Assembly: GCA_017512625.1 (NCBI GenBank)
Contig: JAFWFB010000015.1
Coordinates: 1-16,345 of the forward strand
Length of the DNA: 16,345 bases
Origin: Erysipelotrichaceae bacterium
Lineage (GTDB): Bacteria; Bacillota_I; Bacilli_A; Erysipelotrichales; Erysipelotrichaceae
Reading direction: 5' to 3'
Shown here: positions 1 to 15,697 of the stretch, piece after piece
Layout of the letters: the number at the start of each line of letters is the position of its first letter
Position numbering within the stretch: position 1 is the first letter of the stretch
Translations under genes and position numbers: made by a program
Notes under the pieces: generated by a model
What the model was told of the DNA's origin: nothing
Database searches by the model: none
Seen by the model: the letters and a program-made list of their open reading frames with translations, nothing else

Positions 1-1
1 A

Positions 2-709
2 GATCCTGAGTACGCCTGCTTAAGTACCCTGCTTGCTCTTGACAGCGATCTGAAGGTGATCAAGGATTACCGCTGCTCTTTATCCAAAGAGTCAACTTCA
101 AATATCATCATTCGTTACAAGGATGCTAACAAGATCAAGAACAATCACATCGTTTGCGACTACATCCTTTATAATCAGAACGACAAGGTCGTAGTTCTGG
201 GTTCTGATTATATTTACGCCAAGGCTCTGTTCTATGTCCTTAGCGAAACACCAAACGTCTTAACCGATTACCGAAAGGATACTCTGGTATTGGCTTACGA
301 TACAGATCCTGAAGCAGTTAAGGACGGATATGGAAGGCTTAAAGGAAACGCCATCTTTATCCAGCAGGAAATCGACAAGCAGTATCTGGGCACTTATGAA
401 GAGATCTCCAACACTCTGACCGCCCGTTCTGAAGCGATCATGAATGAGATCAAAAACTACGAATACAACCACGATGTAAAGCGCTTCGCTTTCATTGAAG
501 ATAAGATCATCAAGACCTTCCTGCTCAAGAAGTTCATCTATGTGCATTACATGCTCGATCGCAATGTCTTAAAGAACGTTCATCAGATGAATGTCAAGGA
601 ACAGCGTACTGAAGCTAAGAGATTATCCAATCTCGTCCGTTTCATTCCTTTCCAGGAGATGTGGGAATACACCAACAATAACAGAAGAAGTGAAGAAGAG
701 GCTGAGTAA
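2..709 (+). CDS. Unrecognised protein, 5' end outside the window
   Basis: The reading frame is open from base 2 with no stop before the GTG at 56, so this is the C-terminal part of a longer protein and that GTG is probably not its start. About 235 residues are visible. I do not recognise the family. It begins with an alternating hydrophobic segment (around VVVLGSDYIYAKALFYVL, encoded near 188-240) that looks like an alpha/beta domain. Its second half is charged and helical, rich in Lys, Glu and Asn, and the tail is acidic (EEEAE). It has no signal peptide or membrane segment in the visible part, so it is probably cytoplasmic. A terminator overlapping the stop codon separates it from the next operon. 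I assign no function. Confidence 0.75.
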   Translation, partial: DPEYACLSTLLALDSDLKVIKDYRCSLSKESTSNIIIRYKDANKIKNNHIVCDYILYNQNDKVVVLGSDYIYAKALFYVLSETPNVLTDYRKDTLVLAYDTDPEAVKDGYGRLKGNAIFIQQEIDKQYLGTYEEISNTLTARSEAIMNEIKNYEYNHDVKRFAFIEDKIIKTFLLKKFIYVHYMLDRNVLKNVHQMNVKEQRTEAKRLSNLVRFIPFQEMWEYTNNNRRSEEEAE

Positions 710-723
710 TCAGCCTTTTTATT
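700..723 (+). terminator. Rho-independent terminator with the stop codon in its loop
   Basis: GGCTGA (700-705) pairs with TCAGCC (710-715), followed by TTTTTATT. The four-base loop GTAA holds the TAA stop codon (707-709) of the upstream gene, so the transcript ends almost at the end of the coding sequence. Confidence 0.85.
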
Positions 724-753
724 GGCTACATTTAGTGTGAGATTCTTATAAAA

Positions 754-769
754 TGCTATAATAATTTAT
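754..769 (+). promoter_or_regulatory. Extended -10 promoter for a leaderless mRNA (XpaC-like operon)
   Basis: TGC-TATAAT at 754-762 is a perfect -10 box with the TGn extension. I see no good -35 box at 16-18 bases upstream, as is common for extended -10 promoters. Seven bases separate the -10 from the ATG at 770, so transcription should start at or next to the A of the start codon. No Shine-Dalgarno sequence is present. Confidence 0.75.
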
Positions 770-1696
770 ATGAGAAGAAGAAGCTTTTTTCCGTGGGGAT
801 TATTCATATTCCTGATGTTATTCGGCGGTGGCGAATACATCTTTGGCTCAGTCATAGCCCTGGCATTCACCCTGTTACCGATCGCGATCATCGTTCAGAT
901 CATTAGATCGATTGTCGGTGATACCGCCAAAATCACCAATTCAAGAACCAACAGAAGAACTACTACCAAAAAGAGAAACGAACAGGCCGGTACTAAGGTC
1001 AATACCTACAGGATCGAACGCCGCCTGAATGAATATTTCAAGGAGAATTACAAGCTCCCGATCATCGGTGAGATCGCTTTGACGACCATCAATGGCAAGT
1101 TCAGCACGATCGATGATCTCTATATCACCGTCAATGATGAATTCATCTGTAATCTGGGACAGTTCAAGCTGAAACACATGTCCACCTATTACAGCATCCT
1201 TAATCTGCTCGATGTTTTCAGCAAGCAGAATGACGATGTCCTCAAGCAGGAAGTAAATGTCAATGCTCCTAAGGAAGTCAAGGTCAGCAAGCGCTCCGAT
1301 GCGCAAGACTATATCGATAAGATCAATCAGCTCAACGAAGCCATCCCGCACGCTGAGATCACCAGTTCCCTCAACCAGACCTGTGATTATCTGCGTAAGA
1401 TCGATTCCGCTTCATCGAAAGATGACAATAAACTGAGAAAGCTTTACGATTATTATCTCCCGATCCTGGTCAACATCCTGGAAAACTACAAGAAGTTACA
1501 GGTCAATCAGGAAAATGAGGAATTCAAGAGAACAGAGAATGAGCTTATCAAGCTGACCATCCTGATCAACGAAGCCTTAAAGGAGATCAACAATTCCCTG
1601 CACAACGAAGAATATATCAACCTCAACGCTGATATGAAGACTTTAGAGTCCCTCCTTAAGAAGGATGTGCTGGTAGATGAAGGATTAAGAAAATGA
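770..1696 (+). CDS. Membrane-anchored protein with XpaC-like C-terminal domain
   Basis: 308 residues. Two hydrophobic segments (about 8-20 and 26-46) anchor the N-terminus in the membrane. A basic Arg/Lys/Thr-rich linker follows (about 55-75), then a middle domain (about 78-150). A helical C-terminal domain (about 170-302) contains KLRKLYDYYLPILVNILENY and ends in a helix of the form TLESLLKKD. That C-terminus resembles the XpaC family (5-bromo-4-chloroindolyl phosphate hydrolysis protein, Halogen_Hydrol), whose true biochemical role is unclear and which is often encoded with TelA-type proteins. The assignment is from memory of the family pattern. The start at 770 is fixed by the promoter and lies downstream of an in-frame stop at 749. 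The gene overlaps the next by 4 bases (ATGA), so the three genes to 4190 form one coupled operon. Confidence 0.8.
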   Translation: MRRRSFFPWGLFIFLMLFGGGEYIFGSVIALAFTLLPIAIIVQIIRSIVGDTAKITNSRTNRRTTTKKRNEQAGTKVNTYRIERRLNEYFKENYKLPIIGEIALTTINGKFSTIDDLYITVNDEFICNLGQFKLKHMSTYYSILNLLDVFSKQNDDVLKQEVNVNAPKEVKVSKRSDAQDYIDKINQLNEAIPHAEITSSLNQTCDYLRKIDSASSKDDNKLRKLYDYYLPILVNILENYKKLQVNQENEEFKRTENELIKLTILINEALKEINNSLHNEEYINLNADMKTLESLLKKDVLVDEGLRK

Positions 1697-2193
1697 AAGA
1701 TATCGAAACAATATTAGCTGATCTGGAACGACAGATCGGGGATACCAAATCCATCGATCAGATCAAGGACAGCATTACCCAAAGCAGTGATGACCTGATC
1801 TCGATCAACCGCCGTTACCAAGGCGAACACCGGGGTGTTTTCAAGATCCCGGTCGTCAATGAGACCTACAAGCACAACACCTATTACACCCGTCATGAGT
1901 ACTTCGTTAACTACATTGCGAGCGTAAACTATGAAAATACCGACAACGTTGAGTATGTTCAGGCTCATCTGCAGGCGCTTAACAAGTACCTCAAGCAAAA
2001 CGAAGTCAATAACCGTAACCTGGTCGTCATCGAATCGATCCTCAAGCAAGAGATCGTTGAAAACGAGCATAACAAGACTACGGTTGCTGCAAAGGGCTAC
2101 TATGACGGACTTCGTTATGTCCTTTCCGCGATCAACTATTCCCGTGACAAGATGATGGACAGCATCGACCTGCGGATCAAGAGTGAACTATGA
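1693..2193 (+). CDS. Unrecognised small cytoplasmic protein in the XpaC-AAA+ operon
   Basis: 166 residues, no signal peptide, no membrane segment. The N-terminal 40 residues look like a coiled or paired helix (LADLERQIGDTKSIDQIKDS). A Tyr/His/Asn-rich central stretch (about 50-85, including NTYYTRHEYFVNYIASVNYE) precedes more helices. I do not recognise a family. Its ATG overlaps the TGA of the upstream gene by 4 bases, and its own TGA overlaps the AAA+ gene start by 4 bases. A weak AAGGA at 1680-1684 may act as its ribosome binding site. The tight coupling suggests it is a partner or adaptor linking the membrane protein to the AAA+ protein, but this is inferred from context only. Confidence 0.8.
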   Translation: MKDIETILADLERQIGDTKSIDQIKDSITQSSDDLISINRRYQGEHRGVFKIPVVNETYKHNTYYTRHEYFVNYIASVNYENTDNVEYVQAHLQALNKYLKQNEVNNRNLVVIESILKQEIVENEHNKTTVAAKGYYDGLRYVLSAINYSRDKMMDSIDLRIKSEL

Positions 2194-4190
2194 AAAAAGA
2201 AGACAAAGAAAAATTAATGAATGAGGTTTTGAACAAGCGTCGTGAAGTCAACAAGATCGGTGATGACACGATCAGTCTTTTGACATCCTTGGAAGCAGAA
2301 CTTGATGAACTGCTTAAGAAAAACCAGGAGGATGCCAAAAAGATCCAGAATGAACTGGGCCTCAGTGAAGATTACATAAAGGGAGTCGAAAAGGAGATCG
2401 CTTCTGATTTCAACCTGCAGGAAAAGCAGGCTGTGGAAGTGGTAAGAGGCAAGGACAGTAAGGAAGTATTCGATAAGATGGCTGAAGAGGTCAAGGTCAA
2501 TGTCCTTGGACAAGATGAAGCTGTCGATGCGATCTTAAGAGCAGTCCGTCGTCCTTATGTCACCGGATTCGACGCCAAGAAGCTTAAAAACAGCATGATC
2601 GTTACCGGCTCTGACGGCTCCGGCAAGCACTATCTGATGCAGGAGATCGCCAAGGCCTTAAATAATAACAACCTCTCGCTTTCTCCTGATCTGGCTTATC
2701 TCGATATGAGCCGGTATCAGAATTCCTCAAGTGAGACCTTATTCCTGCAGGACTTCTATGCAGCTTTGGAAGGACCGTGCGAGTTCATCGTCATTGAAAA
2801 CTTTGCGGTCTCAAGTCCGGTCTATAACCGTATGCTATCGGAGATGGTCATCAACAATAAGATCGTCTTAAGCAAGCGATACAGTCTTAAAAACGGACAG
2901 CTGGAAGAAGTTACTACCAAGCTTACCGGTGATATCATCGATACCTTATATGGCAATTCCAAATATCTGGTCTTCATCAATGAGGGCAAGGAATCCTCAT
3001 TGCTCGATTATTTCGGCAAGAATTTCATCGATGCGATCCACGACAAGGTCAAGGTCAAGACCTTTGAGGGTGAAGTCGTCGATCAGCTGATCCAGCGTGA
3101 ACTGGAACTTCTGGAAAAGAAGTGTGAAGCTCAGCTGGAGATCGATCTGATCATCGATCCAACCATCAATCAGGATATCAAGGATAAATATGAAAAGATC
3201 CGTGGCATCAAGAGCATCAGGGAACCGATCAACCGTATCTATAACGATCTGGTAAATCTGGCCTTAGCCAAGGATATCGATGTCGTTACCGTCAAGGAAG
3301 AAGCAGATAAACTGATCGCTGTCTATGGCGATGAGATCATGTCCCTTAGCGATGACGATGCTAACAAGGAAAGGGAAGAGATCCAAAAGGAACTCGATGC
3401 GATCGTTGGTCTGGATCAGGTCAAGGAATACCTGCTTTCCTTAGAAGATCTATTAAAGATCAATACCCTTCGTAAACAAAAAGGCATGAAGACCGCCGAG
3501 GTCAGCAAGCACATGGTCTTTACCGGCAACCCTGGTACGGGTAAGACGACCATCGCCAGGATCGTTTCCCGTCTGATGAAGGCCTGTGGCATCCTAAAGA
3601 CCGGTCAGTTGGTCGAAGTTACCCGAAGCGATCTGGTCGGACGCTATGTCGGTCATACCGCTCCGCTTACCGCATCAGTAATCGAGTCAGCCATCGGTGG
3701 AGTCTTATTCATCGATGAAGCCTATTCACTTTACCGTGGTCACGATGATTCCTTCGGTCTGGAAGCCATCGATACCCTGGTCAAAATGATGGAAGATCAC
3801 CGTGATGATCTGATCGTCATCCTGGCCGGATACTCCAGGGAAATGGCGGAATTTTTGGAAGCCAACAGCGGTCTTAAGAGCCGTTTTGCGAATATCATTC
3901 ACTTCCCGGATTATACCGGTGAAGAACTGGCTAAGATCGCTGTATCGATCGCGACCGGTAAGGATTACAAGATCGATGATGATGCCTATCAGAAACTGAT
4001 CGTCTACTTTACCAAGGTCCAGGCCAAGGGCGATTCCACTTCCGGTAATGGCCGTCTGGCCCGTAACGTTGTCGAAGACGCGATCCTTAAGCAATCACAG
4101 CGCATACTAAACGATCCGGATAAGCCGATGGATCTGTTGCTCACTGAAGATTTCGTCGAACTTAACGACATTGAATTACCTAAAGAGTAG
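2190..4190 (+). CDS. Double AAA+ protein: degenerate ClpB-like module plus CbbX/SpoVK-type ATPase
   Basis: 666 residues. A helical, highly charged N-terminal region (1-95) precedes a first AAA+ module (about 100-300) resembling a Clp/AAA_2 domain (VLGQDEAVDAILRAVRRP). Its P-loop is GSDGSGKH (140-147) with His instead of Thr/Ser after the Lys, and its Walker B reads FIVIEN (199-204) instead of hhhhDE, so it is probably inactive in hydrolysis. A helical linker leads to a second module (about 403-640) of the CbbX/SpoVK type. This one has intact motifs: Walker A GNPGTGKTT (446-454), Walker B VLFIDEAYSL (505-514), arginine-finger-like SRF (564-566) and a sensor-2 region GNGRLARNVVEDA (619-631). 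CbbX-type ATPases are ring-forming remodelling machines. The substrate here is unknown, but the upstream membrane protein is an obvious candidate partner. SpoVK itself is a sporulation protein, but nothing here shows a sporulation role. No clear terminator follows. Confidence 0.88.
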   Translation: MKKEDKEKLMNEVLNKRREVNKIGDDTISLLTSLEAELDELLKKNQEDAKKIQNELGLSEDYIKGVEKEIASDFNLQEKQAVEVVRGKDSKEVFDKMAEEVKVNVLGQDEAVDAILRAVRRPYVTGFDAKKLKNSMIVTGSDGSGKHYLMQEIAKALNNNNLSLSPDLAYLDMSRYQNSSSETLFLQDFYAALEGPCEFIVIENFAVSSPVYNRMLSEMVINNKIVLSKRYSLKNGQLEEVTTKLTGDIIDTLYGNSKYLVFINEGKESSLLDYFGKNFIDAIHDKVKVKTFEGEVVDQLIQRELELLEKKCEAQLEIDLIIDPTINQDIKDKYEKIRGIKSIREPINRIYNDLVNLALAKDIDVVTVKEEADKLIAVYGDEIMSLSDDDANKEREEIQKELDAIVGLDQVKEYLLSLEDLLKINTLRKQKGMKTAEVSKHMVFTGNPGTGKTTIARIVSRLMKACGILKTGQLVEVTRSDLVGRYVGHTAPLTASVIESAIGGVLFIDEAYSLYRGHDDSFGLEAIDTLVKMMEDHRDDLIVILAGYSREMAEFLEANSGLKSRFANIIHFPDYTGEELAKIAVSIATGKDYKIDDDAYQKLIVYFTKVQAKGDSTSGNGRLARNVVEDAILKQSQRILNDPDKPMDLLLTEDFVELNDIELPKE

Positions 4191-4250
4191 TGAAAATATT
4201 TTCAAAGATTGAAAATAATTGCATTAATTATCATTGAAAACTGTTGCATT
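4191..4250 (+). promoter_or_regulatory. AT-rich repeats and dyads, possible operator region
   Basis: This region precedes the T-box promoter. It holds a perfect 14-base palindrome TGAAAATATTTTCA (4191-4204). It also has a direct repeat of ATTGAAAA-nnn-TTGCATT at 4208-4225 and 4233-4250 with a 25-base period; the second copy contains the likely -35 box. A further dyad ATAATT-n5-AATTAT spans 4215-4231. Some of these resemble ARG boxes (TGAATwwwwATTCA), with 12 of 14 matches for the first palindrome. The region is very AT-rich, so chance is a real alternative. Confidence 0.4.
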
Positions 4251-4271
4251 TATGTTTTTTGATGTTATTAT
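4244..4271 (+). promoter_or_regulatory. Promoter of the T-box / amino-acid importer operon
   Basis: TTGCAT (4244-4249), a 16-base spacer and TATTAT (4266-4271), with a TGT extension at 4263-4265. Transcription should start near 4278, just ahead of the T-box stem I. Confidence 0.6.
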
Positions 4272-4283
4272 GTACTCATAAAT

Positions 4284-4503
4284 CTTTAGATTCGGAGAGT
4301 AGTTATCCCTATCCAGCAAGCGAATAAGGACAGAGTGGAAGCCTTACTATGGTAATGATAGCGAAGCGCACCGATGAAGAGCTGTTTCGAATAAAGTAGA
4401 TACAGACGTCAATCTGCGTTAATGATCGAGGTGGTCTGATTCATTCAGACAATTTGAGTGGTACCGCGATATTTAAGTCGTCTCATTGTGAGACGACTTT
4501 TTT
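4284..4503 (+). ncRNA. T-box riboswitch leader, probable arginine (CGC) specifier
   Basis: The T-box motif GAGTGGTACCGCG lies at 4456-4468, followed by an intrinsic terminator. Stem I closes by CTTT/ATTCG (4284-4287, 4290-4294) pairing with CGAAT/AAAG (4388-4396). It contains GAGAGTAG (4295-4302), an AG-bulge-like AGCAAGCGA, and the distal-loop motif AGAGTGGAAG (4332-4341). A helix TTATC (4303-4307) / GATAG (4357-4361) puts GAA (4363-4365) in the specifier loop opposite AGTA. Then come G, CGC (4367-4369) and A, followed by a K-turn-like GATGA (4373-4377). CGC would mean arginine. The UGGU at 4459-4462 pairs with an ACCA tRNA end, so the tRNA should have A at the discriminator position; this argues against His (CAC overlaps the same loop but tRNA-His has C73). 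A further hairpin lies at 4434-4450. T-box identity is near certain; the specifier is a manual reading. Confidence 0.93.
4475..4503 (+). terminator. T-box regulated terminator
   Basis: AAGTCGTCTCA (4475-4485) pairs perfectly with TGAGACGACTT (4489-4499) around a TTG loop, followed by a T run to 4503. In T-box leaders, uncharged tRNA binding favours a competing antiterminator built on the T-box sequence. Confidence 0.93.
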
Positions 4504-4507
4504 GTTT

Positions 4508-4517
4508 AAAGGAGGAG
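4508..4517 (+). promoter_or_regulatory. Ribosome binding site that fixes the binding-protein start at 4521
   Basis: AAAGGAGGAG lies 3 bases before the ATG at 4521. It overrides the longer open frame beginning at GTG 4458, which lies inside the T-box motif and would put translation through the terminator. Confidence 0.9.
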
Positions 4518-4520
4518 TAT

Positions 4521-5372
4521 ATGAAAAAACTGGTAACTTTATTGTTAACAATCTCTATGGCATTGATTTGCCTGTCTGGCTGCAAGCAGCAGGAAACTGC
4601 TTACGCCAATAAGCTGGAGGAGATCCAGGCTAAGGGAGTATTGGTTTTAGCTACCAGTCCGGACTATGCTCCAATGGAATTCATCGATCCGAATAAATCC
4701 GGACAGGAACAGTATGTAGGTTCTGACATCGCCTTGGCTAAGTATATTGCGGAAGCGCTGGGTGTGACCCTGGAGATCAAGGCCATGGATTTCGATGCTG
4801 TACTTACAGCCATCTCAACCGATAATGCGGACATCGCGATCTCCGGCTTTGGCTGGAAGCAGGAAAGGGAAGATAATTATGAACTTTCCATCGGTTACAA
4901 CCAGGATGGCGAATCAAGCTGTCAGGGACTGATGGTCAAGGCTGACCAAGTCGAAAACTACAAGACCCTTGCTGATTTCAATGGCAAGAAGATCGTTGCC
5001 CAGCCGGGTTCCTTACAGGAAGGCTATGTCAAGGAACAGATCGAAGATGCTGAGATCACCCTGATGAGTACCCTTGATGCCGCATTGATGATGCTTAAGA
5101 CCGACAAGGTCGATGGCTTTGCCTGCTCATGCGATCAGATCTATGTCTATCAGAATTCCAATCCGGATCTGGCTAAGGCTACCCCGGAATTTGATACCAC
5201 TTTGGAAGACATGCACGCCGGAAATGTATTGGCTGTTAAAAAGGGTGAGACTGAACTGATCGCAAAGATCAACGAGATCCTGGCCCAGGTCAACGAATCA
5301 GGAATCTATCAGACCTGGTCTGATGAAGCTAAGGCCATTGGCAAAGCCTTAGGCATGGACTTTGAGGAATAA
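4521..5372 (+). CDS. Amino-acid ABC transporter substrate-binding lipoprotein
   Basis: 283 residues. The N-terminus is a lipoprotein signal peptide: MKK, a hydrophobic stretch (about 4-17), then lipobox LSGC with the lipidated Cys at 21. The rest matches the polar amino acid (family 3, HisJ/ArtJ/FliY-like) binding proteins: KGVLVLATSPDYAPMEF near the start, YVGSDIALAKYIAEALG, ADIAISGFGWKQERE with Arg116 at the usual carboxylate-binding position, and a C-terminal GIYQTW helix. It should sit on the outer face of the membrane and deliver an amino acid to the permease encoded next. The T-box points to arginine; the protein alone does not identify the ligand. Length is normal for the family. Expression depends on the T-box immediately upstream. 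Confidence 0.93.
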   Translation: MKKLVTLLLTISMALICLSGCKQQETAYANKLEEIQAKGVLVLATSPDYAPMEFIDPNKSGQEQYVGSDIALAKYIAEALGVTLEIKAMDFDAVLTAISTDNADIAISGFGWKQEREDNYELSIGYNQDGESSCQGLMVKADQVENYKTLADFNGKKIVAQPGSLQEGYVKEQIEDAEITLMSTLDAALMMLKTDKVDGFACSCDQIYVYQNSNPDLAKATPEFDTTLEDMHAGNVLAVKKGETELIAKINEILAQVNESGIYQTWSDEAKAIGKALGMDFEE

Positions 5373-5374
5373 TC

Positions 5375-6052
5375 ATGGATCTTACCGAGATCATTGATGT
5401 TGCGATAAAATACTGGGACATCTTTCTGGAAGGAGCATGGGGAACCTTGCAGCTATCCTTCATAACCGTATTTCTGGGAAGTCTGTTAGGAATCTTTGTC
5501 TCATTGGGCAAGATGTCCAAGTTTAAACCATTAAGTGCAGTTTGCAGCTTCTATGTCAATCTGATCAGGGGAACCCCGATGCTGGTACAGCTATACATCT
5601 TTACCTTCTTCGTTCCTCAGTTCTTTACCGGACTTAAGAGCCTCAATCTGTCTGATTACTTCTATGTCGTCTTCTCGCTGGTCATCAACTCTTCAGCCTA
5701 TGTATCCGAGATCATCCGTTCGGGTATCCAGGCTGTCGATCCGGGACAGCAGGAAGCAGCCAAGTCACTTGGACTTACCGACTATCATGCCTTTACCAAG
5801 ATCGTATTGCCGCAGGCAGTCAAAAATATCCTGCCTGCATTAGGCAATGAGTTTATCACGATGATCAAGGAGACCTCCCTGGCATCGACCTTCTATATCA
5901 ATGAACTGATGAGGACCAGGACCATCCTGATGTCCACCTATTTCCTTAGCTGGCAGCCGCTTTTTGTAGTAGCGATCATCTACTTCATCATGACTTCGGT
6001 ACTGAGCAAGGGAGTACAGCTTTTGGAAAGGAGGCTGATGCTAAGTGACTAG
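5375..6052 (+). CDS. Amino-acid ABC transporter permease (HisMQ family)
   Basis: 225 residues, the normal size for the His/Glu/Gln/Arg permease family. It is highly hydrophobic, with membrane spans around 22-45, 60-85, 93-115 and 187-212. The family signature [15 protein letters not shown] is present, as is the cytoplasmic EAA loop (EAAKSLG at 127-133, ending in IVLPQAVK) that docks the ATPase. The ATG lies 2 bases after the stop of the binding-protein gene, with GAGGA (5363-5367) as ribosome binding site. It probably forms a homodimeric channel, since only one permease gene is present. It overlaps the ATPase gene by 8 bases. Confidence 0.95.
6025..6034 (+). promoter_or_regulatory. Ribosome binding site supporting the GTG start at 6045
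   Basis: GGAAAGGAGG lies 10 bases before GTG 6045. The ATG at 6038 is out of frame with the ATPase, so the GTG is the start. The site lies within the permease gene. Confidence 0.85.
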
Positions 6053-6776
6053 TCTGATCGAAGTTAAAGGGCTGAAAAAGAATTTCGGTAAGCTCGAAGT
6101 CCTTAAGGGGATCAACCAGACGATCGAAAAGGGCGAAGTCGTCTCGATCATCGGTCCTTCCGGCTCCGGCAAGTCGACTTTCCTAAGATGCCTTAACATG
6201 CTTGAGACACCGACGGAAGGCCAGGTTCTTTTTGAAGGAACGGATATCAGTGCCAAGGGAGTCGATCTGGACCTGCATAGAAGAAAGATCGGCATCGTCT
6301 TCCAGCATTTCAATGTTTTCCCACATCTTACCGTCTTAGAAAATATCACCTTAGCTCCGACCCTGGAGAAGAAAATGCCAGTGAAGGAAGCGGAGAATAT
6401 CGCTGACCAGTTGCTGGCTAAAGTCGGACTAAGCGATAAGAAACACGAATATCCACGCAAGCTAAGCGGTGGACAGAAACAGCGTCTGGCCATTGTCAGA
6501 GCTTTAGCCATGAATCCGGATGTAATGCTCTTTGATGAACCGACCAGTGCCCTGGACCCGGAAATGGTCAAGGAAGTACTGGAAGTCATCCGCCAGCTGG
6601 CAGTCGAAGGCATGACCTGTGTCATCGTCACGCACGAGATGAACTTCGCTAAGCAGATCAGTACCAGAGTCCTGTTTATGGATGACGGTATCATTGCTGA
6701 AGAAGGTACGCCGGACGAGATCTTCAATCATCCGAAGAATCCGAGAACGATCGAATTCCTCTCCAAAGTCCTGTAA
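6045..6776 (+). CDS. Amino-acid ABC transporter ATP-binding protein
   Basis: 243 residues, typical for the GlnQ/HisP/ArtP family. All nucleotide-binding motifs are intact: Walker [10 protein letters not shown] (37-45), Q-loop Gln87 ([10 protein letters not shown]), signature LSGGQKQR (140-147), Walker B MLFDEP (161-166) with D-loop SALDP, and H-loop His197. It powers the importer from the cytoplasmic side of the membrane. It starts with GTG, 8 bases before the end of the permease gene, and is followed after 11 bases by the carboxypeptidase gene, so the four genes appear to form one T-box-controlled operon. Confidence 0.96.
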
Positions 6777-6787
6777 GGAGGATCATC

Positions 6788-8467
6788 ATGAAGACAACAT
6801 TTAAATACGATCACTACTTCCTCTTTGAAGAGATCAAGAAGATCCTGGAGTATTTCCGGGAAAACTATCCCAAGCTGTTTAGCTACGAGAGCATCTGTAC
6901 CACAGTAAAGGGCCTGGAAGTATATGCCTGTACTATCGGCTATGGTGACAATGCTCATAAGAAAGCGATCTATATCGATGGCAATACCCATGCGGGTGAA
7001 GTTACCGGTTCGATGGCTGCCATGCATACCCTGGATTATCTGGTGACCAACAGTGATGATCCTAAGATCTGTAAACTGCTTACTGATACCACTTTCTATA
7101 TCATTCCCAGAGTTTCTCCGGATGGAGCCGAAAAATACCTGAGCTCAGAGATCACCTCCCATTCTCTGCGCTCAGTGGACCGTCCTTACTATGAAGATCT
7201 TAAGGGCCTTCTGGAGCAGGATCTCGATGGCGATAATACCATCAGGATGATGAGGATCAAGGATCCGCATGGCGTCTTTAAGAAAAGCGAAAAGGATCCG
7301 CTGATCATGGAAAAAAGACTTCCGGATGATACAGAAGGTGAATTCTATAATGTCTATTTCGAGGGCCTGTACAAGGATTATGATGGAAACATCATTTATC
7401 CTTCCAAGTCTCCTTATGGCAGGGATTTCAACCGTAATTATCCTTATGGCTGGTTTGCTGAAGCAAGACAGCCGGGTGCCGGTGAGTATCCGTTAAGCAA
7501 TCCTGAGACCAAGGCGATCGTGGACTTTGTCCTAAGCCATCCAAATATCGGTGTGGTAGCGACCCACCATACCCATGGCGGATTCCTACTCTTCCCGCCG
7601 GGAACCAGACCATCAGTCAGCGCTCCTAAGCAGGACATGGAATTCTATAAGGAGATCGGAGCCATGGCCAAGGAGGAATGCGATTATCCTTGTGTCAATA
7701 TCTTCGACTGCTTTATGGAAGATCAAAGCAATTACGATTCCGGCGCCTTCGATGACTGGTGCTATCAGACCCAGGGAATCTTAGCCTATACCGTCGAACT
7801 TTGGGACTTTGACAAACTGGTCGGTAAGACCTGGGATCGGACCAAGAGCTATACACCTAGCTTGGAAGAAGAAAACGAAGTACTGATGTTAAGGATCAAG
7901 TGGCTCAAGGAACATTATCCGGAAGCCATCAAGCCTTGGACGGAATATGATCATCCGCAATTCGGAAAGGTGGAGATCGGTGGCATCGGTGTCAAGTTCA
8001 CCAGCCAGAACCCTCCGGCCTTCCTGCTTAATAATGAAGTGGAGAAGATGACCAGTTTCACCTTGCGCTATGCGAAGGTATTGCCTGAACTATGCATTGA
8101 AAACACCCAGTGCACGCAGGTAGGAGATGATGTCTATAAGATAACGGTCAAAGTTGCTAACAACGGTTATCTGCCTACCAATATCAGCGAGGAAGCCATC
8201 AATCTGAAAGTGGCCAAGGAAGTTAAAGTTAAGATCGAGGGCGAGATCGAGATCATCGAAGGCAAAGCAGAGACCGGTATCGGCAACCTTGGCGGTTATG
8301 GCCAGATCAAGGCGATGATGGGTTACAGTGCCGGATATGAGTCACTGATCACAGTCGCCCCGATCAAGGAAGTTACCTGGATAATCAAGGCAAAAAAAGG
8401 CAGTGAGGTAACGATCAAAGCCTATCAGATCAAGGCCGGTGAAGCCTGCGCCAAGATCGTTCTGTAA
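6788..8467 (+). CDS. Cytoplasmic M14 zinc carboxypeptidase, carboxypeptidase-B-like selector residue
   Basis: 559 residues, with AAGGAGG five to six bases before the ATG. The N-terminal 370 residues are an M14 metallocarboxypeptidase domain with all key residues: zinc ligands His68 and Glu71 (THAGEVTG), substrate-binding Asn215-Arg216 (RDFNRNYPYG), third zinc ligand probably His261 (THHTHGG), and catalytic Glu337 (AYTVELWD). Aligned by eye to pancreatic enzymes, FDDWCY (321-326) puts Asp322 at the position (255) where carboxypeptidase B has Asp to select C-terminal Arg/Lys and carboxypeptidase A has Ile. The C-terminal 170 residues include a beta-rich domain (about 440-559). There is no signal peptide or membrane segment, so it should act in the cytoplasm on imported or internally produced peptides. 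It lies in the T-box operon. Arg/Lys specificity is inferred. Confidence 0.9.
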   Translation: MKTTFKYDHYFLFEEIKKILEYFRENYPKLFSYESICTTVKGLEVYACTIGYGDNAHKKAIYIDGNTHAGEVTGSMAAMHTLDYLVTNSDDPKICKLLTDTTFYIIPRVSPDGAEKYLSSEITSHSLRSVDRPYYEDLKGLLEQDLDGDNTIRMMRIKDPHGVFKKSEKDPLIMEKRLPDDTEGEFYNVYFEGLYKDYDGNIIYPSKSPYGRDFNRNYPYGWFAEARQPGAGEYPLSNPETKAIVDFVLSHPNIGVVATHHTHGGFLLFPPGTRPSVSAPKQDMEFYKEIGAMAKEECDYPCVNIFDCFMEDQSNYDSGAFDDWCYQTQGILAYTVELWDFDKLVGKTWDRTKSYTPSLEEENEVLMLRIKWLKEHYPEAIKPWTEYDHPQFGKVEIGGIGVKFTSQNPPAFLLNNEVEKMTSFTLRYAKVLPELCIENTQCTQVGDDVYKITVKVANNGYLPTNISEEAINLKVAKEVKVKIEGEIEIIEGKAETGIGNLGGYGQIKAMMGYSAGYESLITVAPIKEVTWIIKAKKGSEVTIKAYQIKAGEACAKIVL

Positions 8468-8494
8468 CAGCCATATCTATCAAATACTTATTTA

Positions 8495-8521
8495 AAAAAA
8501 GCGGCCTAAAGTCGCTTTTTT
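8495..8521 (+). terminator. Rho-independent terminator of the importer-carboxypeptidase operon
   Basis: AAAAAAGCGGC (8495-8505) pairs with GTCGCTTTTTT (8511-8521) with one G-T wobble and loop CTAAA. The A-rich 5' arm means it could also stop transcription from the other direction. Confidence 0.88.
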
Positions 8522-8566
8522 ATCTTGCTTATAGTCGATGTTTAAGGTCGCCGTCAGTCCTCAAAT

Positions 8567-8602
8567 TTGACATTTTAGGGTCAGATTAAGTAGAATTAGA
8601 AC
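8567..8602 (+). promoter_or_regulatory. Promoter for a leaderless mRNA (NlpC/P60-like gene)
   Basis: Consensus TTGACA (8567-8572), an 18-base spacer and TAGAAT (8591-8596). Only 6 bases separate the -10 from the ATG at 8603, so transcription should start at the start codon. There is no Shine-Dalgarno sequence. An imperfectly placed inverted repeat TGAC-n8-GTCA (8568-8583) covers the -35 box and could be an operator. Confidence 0.82.
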
Positions 8603-9376
8603 ATGCTAAAAAAACTGATCGTCTGTAACATGGCGCTTCTGCTGCTGATCGGGCTCGCATTACTCGATCTTAACTATCTGCTCAATGAGAAGCTGGAAGC
8701 TCAGTCCAATGTTACCGAACCAACATTTAGAAATATCTCGGATTACTACTTGATAGAAGCCGGTACCGATTTGGATTTCAGTGATGCCTACTACATCGAT
8801 GGACGCAATATCGTTCACCGTGTGTACTTCGCTGAGAACATCAATACCTATGTACCGGGAACCTATAAACTTACCGCAATCGTTAAAAACAGCGAAGAAT
8901 ATGTCTCCAAGGGTGTTACCGTCAAGATCGAGGAACCGGATTGCAGCTCCAGATTAAGCGGCGGATATTATGATCCGGATAAGGGGACTTGCGTTGTTAG
9001 CGGCGGAGCTACCCTGTTCTATAACACAGGAAGTTATTCGACTTATACCGATGCGACCGACGTTTACGGTATCGCTGAGTCATTGCTTGGCGTTACCGGC
9101 AGTTGTCAGGATGTCATGTGCATGTTCTATAACAAGTACTTTGGAAGGCAGCTGCTTACCATCAGGGCCAATTACATCTCTTATGAGGAAGCCCTTCCTG
9201 GCGACATGATCTTCTACATGAACGGCGGTAATGGCTATACTCATGTCGCGGTATACCTGGGTGATGGCATGGCCTTACAGGGCAACTACTCAGGAAGAGC
9301 GGTCATCCGCAGTATCTATCTGCCTAGGGCAACGGAACCGATGTTTGCCCGGGTAATACCTGAATTTGCTGATTGA
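8603..9376 (+). CDS. Exported NlpC/P60-like cysteine hydrolase with Ig-like domain
   Basis: 257 residues. The N-terminus is a signal peptide or membrane anchor (basic MLKK, hydrophobic 5-22). A beta-rich segment of bacterial Ig-like character follows (about 38-110, including YVPGTYKLTAIVKN). A short Cys/Gly-rich stretch (112-136) precedes a C-terminal domain (about 150-257) with the layout of NlpC/P60 enzymes: a Cys at the start of a helix (Cys168 in GSCQDVMCMFYNKY), LPGDMIFY, a His (His214 in YTHVAVYLGDG) and a polar third residue, probably Gln226. NlpC/P60 enzymes cut peptide links in the cell wall. The usual DCSG motif reads SCQD here, so it could be a divergent or non-peptidoglycan member. 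The start is forced by an in-frame TAG at 8597. It is a single gene with its own promoter and no clear terminator before the next promoter. Confidence 0.82.
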   Translation: MLKKLIVCNMALLLLIGLALLDLNYLLNEKLEAQSNVTEPTFRNISDYYLIEAGTDLDFSDAYYIDGRNIVHRVYFAENINTYVPGTYKLTAIVKNSEEYVSKGVTVKIEEPDCSSRLSGGYYDPDKGTCVVSGGATLFYNTGSYSTYTDATDVYGIAESLLGVTGSCQDVMCMFYNKYFGRQLLTIRANYISYEEALPGDMIFYMNGGNGYTHVAVYLGDGMALQGNYSGRAVIRSIYLPRATEPMFARVIPEFAD

Positions 9377-9383
9377 TTAGGTG

Positions 9384-9395
9384 TATAATTAAAGT
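9384..9395 (+). promoter_or_regulatory. -10 promoter for a leaderless mRNA (PUA-like/mnmG operon)
   Basis: Perfect TATAAT at 9384-9389, 6 bases before the ATG at 9396. No strong -35 is visible; any would lie in the end of the upstream gene. An in-frame TAA at 9390 forces the start at 9396, and there is no Shine-Dalgarno sequence. Confidence 0.7.
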
Positions 9396-10235
9396 ATGAG
9401 TAGTATCGCTTATATCAGTGATGCCAAAATGCTGGAATTTCACCGTCTGCAAAACAACAGAAAGATGAATTTTTGGCGCCTTAATAATAAAGGGTTTACG
9501 GATTTTTGCCAGGGAGAATTCATCTTTTTTCTTTCCAAAGACCGCCGGATGATGCGCAACAGGGAAAAGGGCATTATCGGTTACGGTACCCTGGAAGGGA
9601 TCGATTCCTTGTCTGTGCGCAAGATGTGGAACAAGTATGGCTCCTATAACGGTTATAGCAGCTATGAGGAATTCAGCGAGACCTTAAATAAATTAAGCGA
9701 TAAAGGGGAGACGCCGAAAAAGATCAGTTCCCTGGTCGTTGGTGATGTCGTCTTTTTCCAGGGCCCGATCTATCTAAGCGAATTTGACTATAACATCTCC
9801 CGCAATATCGAATCTTACATCTATCTGGAAGATAAGGTGACCGTCTCCATCCTTAAGAAGGCCAGCGAGATCGGTCTGGATGTCTGGACGCATCCGGAAA
9901 AGGAAAACAAGGTCGATCTGGATATCATCAGGGTAGAGTTGTTTGAGGCATTGGACACTGTAAGAGCGCTGGAATACAAAAAAAGCGAACTAAAAGCGAT
10001 CCGTTCGCTGATTCCTGATCGGTGCGAGATCTTAAAAGATCATCAGGATCTCGGCTTTGAGATAGACGAGAACAGGGTCATCATCCACGCTTTTTTGATC
10101 AATGATAAATATCAAAATGAACTGACCGGTTATCTGGTACTGCTTAAAAAACAGATTTTGGGTATTCTTGATAAGGAAATCGTTATAGAATTTAATACAG
10201 GCAACGACCTTATGGATGAAATACTCAATGATTGA
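9396..10235 (+). CDS. Unknown protein with PUA/EVE-like N-terminal domain
   Basis: 279 residues, no signal peptide or membrane segment. The first 150 residues carry NFWRL (25-29), GEFIFFL (40-46), IIGYGTLEG (60-68), MWNKYGSYNGYSSYEEF (77-93) and VVGDVVFFQGPIYL (114-127). The layout 'FWR / GE-FFF / I-GYG / W-K-G--NG / F' resembles the PUA-like/EVE superfamily domains that bind modified bases or RNA and are found in some nucleases and in stand-alone proteins. The C-terminal part (about 170-279) contains a long charged helix (178-205) and a mixed alpha/beta region, and shows no nuclease motif I recognise. It begins an operon that ends with mnmG, a tRNA modification gene, which fits an RNA-related role. 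Family placement is by eye and uncertain. It overlaps the next gene by 8 bases. Confidence 0.8.
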   Translation: MSSIAYISDAKMLEFHRLQNNRKMNFWRLNNKGFTDFCQGEFIFFLSKDRRMMRNREKGIIGYGTLEGIDSLSVRKMWNKYGSYNGYSSYEEFSETLNKLSDKGETPKKISSLVVGDVVFFQGPIYLSEFDYNISRNIESYIYLEDKVTVSILKKASEIGLDVWTHPEKENKVDLDIIRVELFEALDTVRALEYKKSELKAIRSLIPDRCEILKDHQDLGFEIDENRVIIHAFLINDKYQNELTGYLVLLKKQILGILDKEIVIEFNTGNDLMDEILND

Positions 10236-10563
10236 AGAATTAAGAAAACACAAAATATATATCGATGACATCATCGATAGATTCGAAAACGAGAATGAAT
10301 ATCTGAAATGCGTCAGGATCTATCTTACTGACGAGTTTTTCGATGAATTAAAGGAACTGATAAGGATCGGTGATTTTGCCATTGCCATTGATGCCCTTAA
10401 GGGTCTTTATATCCTTGCCCTTGATCTGCGTTTGATGGATCTCTACTGGCTTTTGGTAGATATCTATGAAGCCTTGGTCGAAGAGGATTATGTAGGGATC
10501 GATGACAAACTGGAAGATATCCTTGTAGAACGTCAGCGTCTGATGGAGGTCTTTCATGTTTGA
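10228..10563 (+). CDS. Small unrecognised acidic protein upstream of mnmG
   Basis: 111 residues from ATG 10228; an in-frame ATG at 10216 would add four residues. I prefer 10228 because it gives an 8-base overlap with the upstream stop, the same arrangement seen at other junctions here. Neither start has a strong ribosome binding site, so coupling to upstream translation is likely. The protein is mostly alpha-helical, acidic (EEDYVGIDDKLEDI) and rich in Leu, Ile and Tyr, with a hydrophobic helix around LYILALDLRLMDLYWLLVDI that is more likely a buried core than a membrane span. No known domain is recognised. It overlaps mnmG by 8 bases and contains the GGAGGT that serves mnmG. Confidence 0.75.
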   Translation: MIEELRKHKIYIDDIIDRFENENEYLKCVRIYLTDEFFDELKELIRIGDFAIAIDALKGLYILALDLRLMDLYWLLVDIYEALVEEDYVGIDDKLEDILVERQRLMEVFHV

Positions 10564-12406
10564 TGCGATCGTTGTCGGTGCCGGACATGCGGGATGCGAA
10601 GCTGCCCATATCCTGGCGAAAATGGGCAAGAAGACTGCTTTGATAACCATCAATCTTGAACATATCGCTAAAATGCCCTGCAACCCCAGTATCGGTGGAC
10701 CGGCTAAGGGGATCGTCGTCCGTGAAGTAGATGCCCTCGGTGGCATCATGCCAAGGATTGCTGATAAGACTGCACTGCAGTTTAAGATGCTAAACAGTGC
10801 CAAGGGTCCGGGAGTAAGGGCCCTTAGAGTTCAAAGCGATAAGCTGGCCTATTCAGCCTTGATGCGCAAGACTCTGGAACAGATGGATGATCTTACCATC
10901 ATCGAGGATATCGTTGAAGGTCTGATCGTTGAAGATAATAAATGTGTCGGTGTAAAACTATCATCTAAAGATATCTATGCCAAGGCAGTGGTTTTAACGA
11001 CCGGTACCTACATGGACTCGCTGGTCATGATCAGTGATGAAGTAAAAAGCAGCGGTCCGGATGGTGATAAGACGACCAAGAACCTGTCAAAGTGTCTCAG
11101 TGATCTGGGATTGGAATTATTCCGTCTTAAGACCGGTACCCCGCCAAGGGTCTATACCGACTCCATCGATTTTTCCAGGACGGTTTTGGAAAAGGGTGAC
11201 GATGAATTCTTGCATTTTGCCCAGGAGACTACCAAGGACGAAGTATTGCCACCGGAAAAGCAGCTTCCTTGTTACCTGACTCATACCACCCTAAAGACCA
11301 AAGAGATCATCCAGAATAACATGCACCGCTCCTCAATGTATAGCGGTGTGGTAAAGGGCGTCGGACCGCGTTATTGTCCATCGATCGAAGACAAGGTCAA
11401 GCGTTTTTCCGATAAGGATGTCCACCAGATCTTCCTGGAGCCGGAATCACTGGAACTGGATACCACCTATATCCAGGGCTTCAGTTCTTCCTTACCTAGG
11501 GAAGTGCAGGAAGAGATGCTGGTAACGGTGACCGGTCTGGAACATGCCAGGATCAAGAAATACGCTTATGCGATCGAATACGATGCCATCAATCCGTTGG
11601 ATGTCAAGATCAATCTGGAGACCAGGAAGATCGAGAATCTGTTTATCGGTGGCCAGATCCTGGGTACCAGCGGCTATGAGGAGGCAGCCGGCCTCGGTAT
11701 CATGGCCGGTATCAATGCCTGCCTTAAGATCGATGGCAAGGAGCCTTTCATACTTAAAAGAGATGAGGCTTACATCGGTGTCATGATCGATGATCTGATC
11801 ACCAAAGGAACCAATGAACCATACCGTCTTCTGACCAGCAGAGCGGAATACCGTCTGCTTCTAAGACATGATAATGCGGAGCAAAGACTGATAAGCTATG
11901 CCCACAAGCTTGGTACGGTAAGCGATCTACGCTATCAGAATTATCTTGATAAGGAACATCGCAAGGAAAAGGCGATCGAGACCCTTAAAAATATCAAGTT
12001 CCCGGTCGATTCCAGGATCAATGATTATCTCACTGAACTGGGCTTTGAACCGCTAAGTGTCGGTACCAATGGCTATGAACTGCTTAGAAGACCGAAAGTT
12101 TCGATCTGTAAGCTCAACGAATTTACCGATGACCCGATCGACGAGGATATCATAAATGAGCTGGAGATCGAGACCAAGTATGAAGGTTACATCGCCAAGG
12201 CTAAAAGAGAAGCAGAAAAGATGCGAAAGAATGAGAAGATCTCGCTTAGAAAGATCGAAGATTACCAAAGCGTGCCAAACCTTTCTCTCGAAGCCATCAC
12301 CAAACTTAATAAGATCAAGCCGGAAACGCTTGGTCAGGCTTCCCGGATCAGTGGTATCAACCCTAGCGATTTGGAAGTTATCATGATTTATCTTAAGAGG
12401 TCCTAG
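10556..12406 (+). CDS. mnmG: tRNA uridine-5-carboxymethylaminomethyl modification enzyme MnmG
   Basis: 616 residues, typical for the long bacterial MnmG (GidA). It is an FAD protein that, with MnmE, installs the cmnm5/nm5 group on wobble uridine U34 of certain tRNAs, using methylenetetrahydrofolate. Visible markers: FAD-binding VVGAGHAGCEAA (6-17), the signature CNPSIGGPAKGIVVREVDALGG starting at residue 42, TGTPPRV (193-199), the conserved Cys in RYCPSIEDK (Cys274), GTSGYEEAAGLGIMAG, and SRAEYRLLLRHDNAEQRL near the C-terminal third. A GGAGGT at 10545-10550 lies 5 bases before the ATG. The stop codon sits in the loop of the terminator that follows. In most Firmicutes mnmE lies directly beside mnmG; here mnmE comes two genes later in a separate transcription unit. 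Confidence 0.98.
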   Translation: MFDAIVVGAGHAGCEAAHILAKMGKKTALITINLEHIAKMPCNPSIGGPAKGIVVREVDALGGIMPRIADKTALQFKMLNSAKGPGVRALRVQSDKLAYSALMRKTLEQMDDLTIIEDIVEGLIVEDNKCVGVKLSSKDIYAKAVVLTTGTYMDSLVMISDEVKSSGPDGDKTTKNLSKCLSDLGLELFRLKTGTPPRVYTDSIDFSRTVLEKGDDEFLHFAQETTKDEVLPPEKQLPCYLTHTTLKTKEIIQNNMHRSSMYSGVVKGVGPRYCPSIEDKVKRFSDKDVHQIFLEPESLELDTTYIQGFSSSLPREVQEEMLVTVTGLEHARIKKYAYAIEYDAINPLDVKINLETRKIENLFIGGQILGTSGYEEAAGLGIMAGINACLKIDGKEPFILKRDEAYIGVMIDDLITKGTNEPYRLLTSRAEYRLLLRHDNAEQRLISYAHKLGTVSDLRYQNYLDKEHRKEKAIETLKNIKFPVDSRINDYLTELGFEPLSVGTNGYELLRRPKVSICKLNEFTDDPIDEDIINELEIETKYEGYIAKAKREAEKMRKNEKISLRKIEDYQSVPNLSLEAITKLNKIKPETLGQASRISGINPSDLEVIMIYLKRS

Positions 12407-12417
12407 GACCTCTTTTT
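12395..12417 (+). terminator. Terminator overlapping the mnmG stop codon
   Basis: AAGAGGTC (12395-12402) pairs with GACCTCTT (12407-12414), with the loop CTAG containing the TAG stop (12404-12406), followed by T to 12417. As at 700-723, the transcript ends within a few bases of the coding sequence. Confidence 0.9.
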
Positions 12418-12430
12418 AAATTGATAATAG

Positions 12431-12445
12431 TGTTATACTTAACGT
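12431..12445 (+). promoter_or_regulatory. Extended -10 promoter for a leaderless mRNA (membrane regulator-mnmE operon)
   Basis: TGT-TATACT (12431-12439) with 6 bases before the GTG start at 12446. No good -35 is seen. GATAAT at 12423-12428 is a weaker alternative -10 that would give a leader of about 10 bases. There is no Shine-Dalgarno sequence. Confidence 0.68.
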
Positions 12446-14203
12446 GTGAATTCGCTTCCCAACAAACTTTTAACCTTAAGAAAGCACTATAACTTCTCCC
12501 AGGGTTTTGTAGCCAAGAATGTCGGTATGGACATCTTCAGCTACATGGCCGTGGAAAACGGAAGAATGATGGCTGATTACGAACAGTTACGCAAGATAGC
12601 TGCTTTTTATCATCTGGATATCGCGGAGCTGATCGATAACCGCAAGGAAGTGACTTTAAAGGAATACAACAAGCATTACGATACCGACAAGATCGATCTG
12701 ACCATGATCGGCAAGGAATTGAAACCGAAAAAGACTTTAAAGGAGATCCTTGGTTCCAGCTACTTCTTTGCCATTATCGTAGCCCTGATCTTTATGGTGG
12801 TCATCGTTCATTTCCTGCCTAAGAATGCAAATAACAGTCTGGAACAGATCTTCAGTCCGATCGATCAGTTAAGTGCTTCGGATACTTCTGTTGTCTATCT
12901 ATATGGCAATCAGCTTTTATCCCGCGGCGATAACAGCAACGGTCAGCTGGATTATGCCCAGATCGATAACGTCCTAAAGGCCAAGGAAGGAACCAATTTC
13001 ACCATCATCCTTAAAAAGGACGGATCCCTGGCTAGCGCCGGTCTTAACAGCAAATACCTGGAAGAAGTCGGAAGGATCGATGATGCTTTGGATATCGCAG
13101 CCGGTAAGACCCATGTTCTGATCCTGCACCGCAATCACAGTGTCAGCGCCATCGGTTCCAACAATTTCGGCGAGTGTGATACGCAAAAATGGGAAGGCAT
13201 CAGAAATATCTATGCGGGAGAATACGGTTCAGTAGGCATCAGCGACAAGCAGGTCTATGTCAGCGGCATCGTTCCTTTTGCTGAAGAGATCAAGACCGAT
13301 ACCAAGGGAGTCTATTTCGATAATGACAGCCTGTTTCTGATCAATGCGGATAATACCGTATCCTGCTTTTCACCTAATAATTACATAACCTCCTACTGGG
13401 AGAATGTCATCGATATTGCCATCGGCGAGAATTTCGTCGCAGGACTGCGCAAGGATGGCAAGGTCTACATCCTGATCGATAACTACCTGATCGAAAACGA
13501 AGTCGAGCAGTGGACCGGTATCCAGGCGATCGAAGCCGGAAAGGATTATCTGGTCGCCTTTGACGGTACCCAGGTCTATGGTGTGGGCAACAACAACTAT
13601 GATCAGTTCGATAAGAGTGCTGCTTCCATTCAGCAGCTTCCTGATGTACGCAACATCCATCTGACACCGGATGGCGATGTCTTAAGGATCACCTTTGATC
13701 CGGTCATGGATGCTACCTCCTATCAGATCGAGATCGATCTGGGCATCGGTTACAGCGTCAAGGTCGACGAACCAAAGGCCGAGGTCGAACTAAGCCGGTT
13801 CAATGATGATCAGCAATATCTGATCAGGATCACTGCCTTATCCGATTCCGGTCAGTTTACCAAATCGGATACGTCTTTTGCGGTATTCACCAAGCCGAAG
13901 AAACAGCCGGAGACCACACCAAAGGATGATGAAGAACCGCTGGTCATCGAGATCCCGTTTAAGATCGATGTGCTGGAAGGAAAGACCGTCAATAATTTCA
14001 ATGCCTATATAAGCGGGCTGGGTGTCGATCCTGGCAAGGTAAGCGGCCATGAGGATGAAAGCCCATGTGCCAAGGGACAGAATGAGCCGATCATCATCAG
14101 GGTCATTGGTCTGACGAGCAATGAATCGATCACCAAGACTGAATTATTTGAAAGAGAAATTGAGTATTATTACTGCAAGCTGGTAAACGAAGATGAGCAA
14201 TAA
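12446..14203 (+). CDS. Transmembrane XRE-type regulator with extracellular RCC1-like propeller and FnIII-like domain
   Basis: 585 residues starting at GTG. An in-frame TAA at 12440 and the position of the HTH domain force this start. The N-terminus (about 6-62) is an XRE/Cro-type helix-turn-helix (LLTLRKHYNFSQGFVAKNVG ... VENGRMMADYEQLRKIAAFYHLD). A charged linker leads to one membrane span (105-124). The rest should be extracellular. Residues 147-395 have RCC1-type propeller repeats, each running 'kdGsl-a-G-N--Gq---w--I--i-aG--h-v-L' (for example SAIGSNNFGECDTQKWEGIRNIYAG). A fibronectin-III-like domain (about 400-483, VLRITFDPVMDATSYQIEI) follows, then a Pro-rich linker and a C-terminal domain (500-585) of possibly PASTA-like fold with two Cys (541, 577). 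The design suggests an external signal transmitted directly to a DNA-binding domain at the membrane. Signal and target are unknown. It heads the operon that includes mnmE, so autoregulation is plausible. Confidence 0.85.
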   Translation: MNSLPNKLLTLRKHYNFSQGFVAKNVGMDIFSYMAVENGRMMADYEQLRKIAAFYHLDIAELIDNRKEVTLKEYNKHYDTDKIDLTMIGKELKPKKTLKEILGSSYFFAIIVALIFMVVIVHFLPKNANNSLEQIFSPIDQLSASDTSVVYLYGNQLLSRGDNSNGQLDYAQIDNVLKAKEGTNFTIILKKDGSLASAGLNSKYLEEVGRIDDALDIAAGKTHVLILHRNHSVSAIGSNNFGECDTQKWEGIRNIYAGEYGSVGISDKQVYVSGIVPFAEEIKTDTKGVYFDNDSLFLINADNTVSCFSPNNYITSYWENVIDIAIGENFVAGLRKDGKVYILIDNYLIENEVEQWTGIQAIEAGKDYLVAFDGTQVYGVGNNNYDQFDKSAASIQQLPDVRNIHLTPDGDVLRITFDPVMDATSYQIEIDLGIGYSVKVDEPKAEVELSRFNDDQQYLIRITALSDSGQFTKSDTSFAVFTKPKKQPETTPKDDEEPLVIEIPFKIDVLEGKTVNNFNAYISGLGVDPGKVSGHEDESPCAKGQNEPIIIRVIGLTSNESITKTELFEREIEYYYCKLVNEDEQ

Positions 14204-14387
14204 GATTTTTAGATACCGAAAAGGCAAGGAAGTAAGCGACCCGATCAGCGAAGAAGAACTGATCGAACTGATCAGGGAAAAGATGCTTGACGATGAAGTC
14301 ATGATCAAGACCCGTGAACTGAAGGAATGGATCAGGATCGCTGATAGCATCTATGAGTATTACTTCCGGGAGAGCGACAATGTTTGA
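14193..14387 (+). CDS. Small protein with GYF_2-like fold
   Basis: 64 residues. The pattern FRYRKGKEVSDPISEEELIELI ... MLDDEVMIKTRELKEWIRIAD matches the layout of GYF_2 (DUF4339) domains: an opening strand with a Gly, 'xPxSxEEL', a short helix, 'lxxDxxI', and a closing 'W--I'. Such domains are usually peptide-binding modules attached to membrane proteins; here it is a whole protein. It overlaps the propeller-regulator gene by 11 bases and mnmE by 8 bases, which supports it being a real translated gene although it lacks a strong ribosome binding site. It could be a binding partner of the upstream regulator. The domain call is by eye. Confidence 0.65.
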   Translation: MSNKIFRYRKGKEVSDPISEEELIELIREKMLDDEVMIKTRELKEWIRIADSIYEYYFRESDNV

Positions 14388-15696: not shown

Positions 15697-15697
15697 G

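Follow-up and report, generated by a model that had tools for sequence, protein, structure and literature searches.

Does transcription of some genes in this bacterium begin at, or almost at, their own start codons? The question is raised by a 16,345-nt stretch of DNA from an Erysipelotrichaceae bacterium (GenBank assembly GCA_017512625.1, contig JAFWFB010000015.1, positions 1 to 16,345, forward strand; hereafter the window), in which four genes, named here by the first position of their start codons (770, 8603, 9396 and 12446), have a −10 box immediately upstream. A first-pass annotation had predicted leaderless messages from these promoters; the sequence reads back exactly as it claimed, with gaps (bases between the −10 hexamer and the start codon) of 7, 6, 6 and 6. 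We consider it probable, at roughly 0.87, that the four genes have tight promoters giving leaderless or near-leaderless mRNAs in a genome of mixed initiation modes. The usual distance from the −10 box to the transcription start underlies predictions of leaderless messages. With the box 6–7 bases ahead of the codon, RNA polymerase at these putative sigma-A-type promoters would most likely initiate on the first base of the start codon or no more than a few bases away, and the resulting mRNAs would be leaderless or nearly so. The ribosome would then initiate on a 5'-terminal AUG or GUG without a Shine–Dalgarno (SD) site, and such genes would exist alongside more numerous ones whose leaders have room for it. 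Both the transcription start positions and translation from the first bases of the message are what we infer from the DNA.

The four pairs of −10 box and start codon are poorly explained by chance. When any of 10 allowed hexamers is counted as TATAAT-like, and 15 gene starts of the window are considered (that of mnmE entered one base off, at 14381 for 14380), such hexamers fill 4 of the 30 cells formed by the starts and gaps 6–7, compared with 3 of 885 at the remaining gaps from 0 to 60 (Fisher P = 3e-5). After dinucleotide shuffling of the 60 nt ahead of each start, a TATAAT-like hexamer at gap 6 or 7 arises with P = 0.038 (770), 0.0065 (8603), 0.018 (9396) and 0.025 (12446). All four boxes end about 6 bases upstream of the start codon, as in known leaderless genes, and the codons are ATG, ATG, ATG and GTG, respectively. 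In-frame stops had been thought to force three of these starts; in fact all four are the earliest start codons possible after an in-frame stop, which lies two codons upstream at 8603, 9396 and 12446. The GTG start is further supported by the helix-turn-helix (HTH) match of the 12446 protein, which begins at residue 7. Hairpins resembling terminators precede 8603 and 12446 and count in favour of the proposed reading.

The SD sites are less informative than they first appeared. Scores at 770, 8603, 9396 and 12446 are 0, 0, 4 and 0, the 4 at 9396 being an AGGT upstream of the −10 box and 13 bases ahead of the ATG. The contrast that the first-pass annotation drew with SD-bearing genes cannot serve as independent evidence, because at gaps 6–7 the −10 box fills the SD position and the two exclude each other; we have rejected it in that role. 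Matches of at least 6 occur at 4 of the 15 scored starts (4521, 6045, 6788 and 10556), all four being as strong as had been said, although 4521 is not internal to an operon but sits behind a T-box leader. Nor are strong SD sites general in the window, as 2190, 10216, 14193 and 15698 also score 0.

A plot of the −10-to-start distance, proposed earlier for the whole genome, was run on relatives and has the expected peak at gaps 6–7. The window matches 12 uncultured Erysipelotrichaceae loci at 63–67% identity in MnmG; a family-wide MnmG search reached 272 genomes, of which the 43 with MnmG at least 62% identical are treated as close relatives. The distance sample covers 1.29 Mb from 18 related genomes, with 1154 genes called by a simple rule of non-overlapping open reading frames. 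In this sample, 56 −10 boxes lie at gap 6 from an ATG and 43 at gap 7, whereas gaps 0–5 and 10–17 average 13.5; the 99 sites at gaps 6–7 compare with 27 expected (P = 1e-26), and away from the mnmG stretches the figures are 53 and 16. A second, broad hump begins at gap 18, where SD sites grow common: SD matches of at least 5 are found at 3 of 113 starts at gaps 6–7, 22 of 144 at gaps 10–17 and 51 of 121 at gaps 18–21. The peak is absent from the outgroup genome G022 (handles of this form denote genomes), with 4 and 8 sites at gaps 6 and 7 versus a mean of 5.0 at other gaps, and composition alone was rejected as its cause on this ground. Another outgroup, G013, has 3 and 0 sites versus an average of 0.36 elsewhere, in a sparse sample. 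Across whole genomes, TATAAT-(6–7)-ATG exceeds the frame-matched TATAAT-(12–13)-ATG by a median ratio of 2.11 in the 43 close relatives (median excess of 67 sites) and of 1.35 (21 sites) in 227 others, a set of others that leaves out G141 and G145 and includes eight genomes listed next to the clade, with cut or missing MnmG (G116, G118, G125, G128, G129, G135, G138 and G190; ratios 2.5–4.0).

For two of the four genes, most orthologues in the close relatives keep the geometry. The 12446 protein was found in 41 of the 43 close genomes, at 42 loci of nearly full length, of which G122 has two, and at 31–40% identity; the gap is 6–7 at 28 of these loci, 8–10 at 10 and neither at 4 (G005, G009, G218 and G219). 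Of the 28, 11 start with GTG at gap 6. The 770 protein was found in 38 of the 43, and among the 37 loci read the gap is 6–7 in 16 and 8–10 in 19, the start not being located in 2 (G218 and G219, where the match begins at residue 54–55); G136, at 22% identity, was left out. Gaps of 6–10 are thus kept at 38 of 42 loci for 12446 and 35 of 37 for 770, and all 73 of these starts have an SD score of 0. In G218 and G219 (loci L204 and L208), the 12446 orthologue has instead a −10-like box 24 bases from its start along with an SD site scoring 6, and these SD sites, together with the whole-genome ratios of the two genomes, look as if the leaderless class were reduced there. No relative of 9396 has a gap of 6–10 (0 of 7), and five of the seven score 4–7 for SD. 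Orthologue support is thus strong for 770 and 12446 and absent for 9396. The first-pass prediction of leaderless mRNAs accordingly gains from the peak in relatives, from conservation at 770 and 12446 and from the base preceding gap-6 starts (below), and finds no such backing at 9396. In G001, G188, G193 and G195, the 9396 homologue directly precedes the 10216 homologue and mnmG, without a tight promoter.

The geometry recurs at other genes of the relatives. Reciprocal best partners of gap 6–7 genes share it in 128 of 218 directed pairs, compared with 20 of 424 when the other first genes are paired, although such pairs depend on one another and the sample is tilted towards mnmG. The homologue of 10216 that precedes mnmG has gaps of 7–10 in 21 of 23 relatives (9, 5, 5 and 2 at gaps 7, 8, 9 and 10), with an SD score of 0 in all 21; its start was located in 23 of 24 genomes tried, G012 not matching the pattern and G217 having no match row, and the count leaves out G001, G002, G003, G188, G193 and G195, where a relative of 9396 lies upstream. 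A gene for an ABC ATPase has gaps of 6–8 in 8 of 8 genomes, with GTG in two and TAAAAT in seven. For rsmG, TATAAT stands at gaps 6–7 in 9 of 9 grouped genomes, even though the 47 nt upstream are merely 33% identical, and gaps of 6–8 are found in all 15 genomes of a further set that does not overlap the 18 sampled (14 within the 43 close relatives and G191 at 61%). GTG opens rsmG in 5 of these 24 clade genomes; with the 11 of 42 orthologous 12446 loci given above, the earlier remark that GTG is unusual for leaderless messages does not hold here. In 15 outgroup genomes (L131–L141, L144, L146, L147 and L160), 11 rsmG genes have the −10 box at gaps 16–22, with SD scores of 5 in eight, 4 in G026 and G075, and 0 in G061; the others have gap 6 in G013 and G014 (TATACT), gap 9 in G024 and no box in G039. 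A strict motif missed 7 of the 15, which a looser one recovered. The difference between gaps of mostly 16–22 in the outgroup and 6–8 in the clade makes rsmG a candidate for a switch of initiation mode at a single gene.

More generally, loss of the tight geometry, at 12446 in G218 and G219 and at rsmG in most outgroups, goes with a −10 box about 16–24 bases ahead of the start and, in most cases, an SD site in the interval. RsmG and MnmG are rRNA- and tRNA-modifying enzymes, respectively, and 12446 precedes mnmE in the window. One may speculate that rsmG, the gene ahead of mnmG, the HTH–RCC1 gene 12446 and 770 form a nearly fixed leaderless set of the clade, that the gain or loss of about a dozen bases switches the mode, and that the state of the ribosome feeds back on enzymes modifying rRNA and tRNA. 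We regard this as unlikely, but if it were true, messages sharing the leaderless mode could let the ribosome's state act back on those enzymes.

The strongest alternative concerns a few bases only: the promoters may be tight, with polymerase starting just before the start codon and leaving leaders of 1–4 bases. Transcription favours a pyrimidine ahead of a purine start (the YR motif described in PMC4782308). At gap 6, a pyrimidine precedes the ATG in 49 of 56 relatives' genes, compared with 331 of 541 controls at gaps 0–5 and 10–30 (P = 6e-5), a signature that fits a predicted transcription start at the A of the ATG. At gap 7 the signature is absent, the base being a pyrimidine in only 17 of 43 genes and a purine in 26, as if that purine were itself the first base transcribed; in many gap 7 genes transcription perhaps starts one base before the ATG. 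Gaps of 8–10 likewise suggest leaders of 1–4 bases; among orthologues they are found at 19 of 37 loci for 770 and at 10 of 42 for 12446, and the gene preceding mnmG has them in 12 of 23 relatives. Three of the four window sites stand at gap 6, however, and there the preceding bases are C, T and T (8603, 9396 and 12446, respectively). We give very short leaders an appreciable chance, well under even odds.

Besides the gap 7 genes and the wider gaps at 770, several observations weigh against tight promoters with leaderless messages. Only 8603 has a good −35 box, and the −10 boxes at two of the four sites match at 5 of 6 positions. For 8603 there are partial matches only, in 17 of the 43 close genomes and mostly to the C-terminal domain; together with the result for 9396, this leaves two of the four genes outside the orthologue support. 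The reading of orthologue starts was somewhat permissive, taking any in-frame start near the aligned one, and the nearest relatives compared are at most 67% identical in MnmG, although seven proteins 97–100% identical to the 9396 product exist, so that the species has been sequenced elsewhere. In the pooled relatives, the GTG excess is weak (14 versus 7.3, P = 0.017). A score-based classification gave a weaker result, with 57 of 515 first genes at gaps 5–9 versus 26 of 515 at gaps 12–16 and 21 of 515 at gaps 0–4, and in G009 alone 7 of 134 versus 6 and 7. The contrast in whole-genome ratios is statistical rather than clean: 36 of the 227 others reach 2, and 6 of the 43 close relatives are below 1.5, of which G218 and G219 are below 1.

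Leaderless or near-leaderless messages are well supported by these sequence comparisons as a minority class, predicted for about 6% of genes in relatives. The excess of the gap 6–7 geometry amounts to 6.2% of genes there, and 87 of 710 first genes (12%) have the geometry before background removal, so leaderless initiation as the dominant mode of the lineage is not supported and was rejected. It might still be the main mode in the window's own species, beyond its relatives, given that four of the five window genes counted as first genes have the geometry and that 4 of 15 window genes exceed the roughly 8.6% expected from relatives (P = 0.035). The window is small and was picked because the pattern was noticed in it, relatives show a minority class, and 4521, 6045, 6788 and 10556 have strong SD sites; we judge this reading improbable. 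That the hexamers are chance AT-rich matches, with real promoters farther upstream and SD-independent initiation, draws on the imperfect −10 and mostly missing −35 boxes and on whole-genome ratios near 1 in some family members (175/181 in G020, 324/344 in G022), but it is set against the small joint probability of the four window sites and the geometry shared by 770 and 12446 orthologues and by the diverged rsmG upstream region, and is very improbable indeed.

Tight promoters with leaderless or near-leaderless messages are a known phenomenon, found here in a lineage for which we found no report. Zheng et al. 2011 (PMC3160421) described leaderless genes of bacteria that are marked by a TANNNT signal some 12 bp ahead of the start. 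The likeness lies in a −10-like box at an equal distance (a first T about 12 bp upstream corresponds to gap 6), in a minority standing beside SD-led genes and in a TATAAT-like consensus in low-GC genomes; there, 56 of the 209 Firmicutes genomes had the signal (4.2% on average, range 2.4–16.6), mostly Lactobacillales and Mycoplasma, and the main text does not contain 'erysipelo'. In mycobacteria (Shell et al. 2015, PMC4633059), leaderless genes are transcribed from the first base of an ATG or GTG, as predicted here, and coexist with leadered genes, although RNA-seq, ribosome profiling and reporters were used there, whereas the present case is one of sequence, in Bacillota. Mapping of starts in gut bacteria by Cappable-seq (PMC4782308) gave leaderless shares of 10% of start sites in Akkermansia and 15% in Bifidobacterium; the likeness is that these bacteria live in the gut, that their minority share is comparable in size and that the YR motif stands at the start site, whereas the phyla differ and 'erysipelo' does not occur there. 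Leaderless use in 21.6% of bacterial species is cited in PMC9581028, and the value of 74 given for Erysipelotrichia in PMC10783764, if it is the percentage of genes with an SD match, as we take it to be, fits a minority leaderless class. Searches of the open-licence literature listed no report on leaderless genes in Erysipelotrichaceae or on leaderless rsmG, and none of leaderless genes among the matches listed for Erysipelothrix transcription start sites.

The window would extend the known range of leaderless genes to a lineage of gut Bacillota. Individual genes keep the tight form in most of the close relatives compared, and in some relatives the same gene has a longer leader, usually with an SD site; this offers a matched natural comparison for when and why genes change their initiation mode. 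Gene-start annotation is also affected, as SD-reliant finders can misplace such starts in these genomes.

Table 1. Positions of the promoter elements, predicted leaderless genes and neighbouring features in the window.
Feature	Position	Strand	Remarks
−10 box TATAAT	757-762	+	gap 7 to ATG 770; TG at 754-755, extended −10
Predicted leaderless gene 770	770-1696	+	308 aa; no Pfam match; opens three-gene run ending in AAA ATPase (2190-4190)
T-box leader (RF00230, 119 bits)	4278-4488	+	serves SD-bearing gene 4521; leadered contrast within the window
Intrinsic-terminator-like hairpin	8495-8521	+	upstream of gene 8603
−35 box TTGACA	8567-8572	+	18 nt from TAGAAT; top-scoring promoter match in the window list (11/12)
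−10 box TAGAAT	8591-8596	+	gap 6 to ATG 8603
Predicted leaderless gene 8603	8603-9376	+	257 aa; NlpC/P60 domain; in-frame TAG 8597-8599
−10 box TATAAT	9384-9389	+	gap 6 to ATG 9396; no clear −35
Predicted leaderless gene 9396	9396-10235	+	279 aa; no Pfam match; precedes 10216 and mnmG; in-frame TAA 9390-9392
Intrinsic-terminator-like hairpin	12395-12414	+	downstream of mnmG; leaves 31 nt up to GTG 12446
−10 box TATACT	12434-12439	+	gap 6 to GTG 12446; TG at 12431-12432, extended −10
Predicted leaderless gene 12446, GTG start	12446-14203	+	585 aa; HTH and RCC1-like repeats; in-frame TAA 12440-12442

Two neighbourhoods in the window can be described further. The proteins of 770 and 1693, both without a Pfam match, precede the 2190 protein, which has AAA ATPase and AAA lid matches. 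The T-box leader heads a run of genes for an amino-acid-type ABC transporter (4521, 5375 and 6045), followed by an M14 zinc carboxypeptidase gene (6788).

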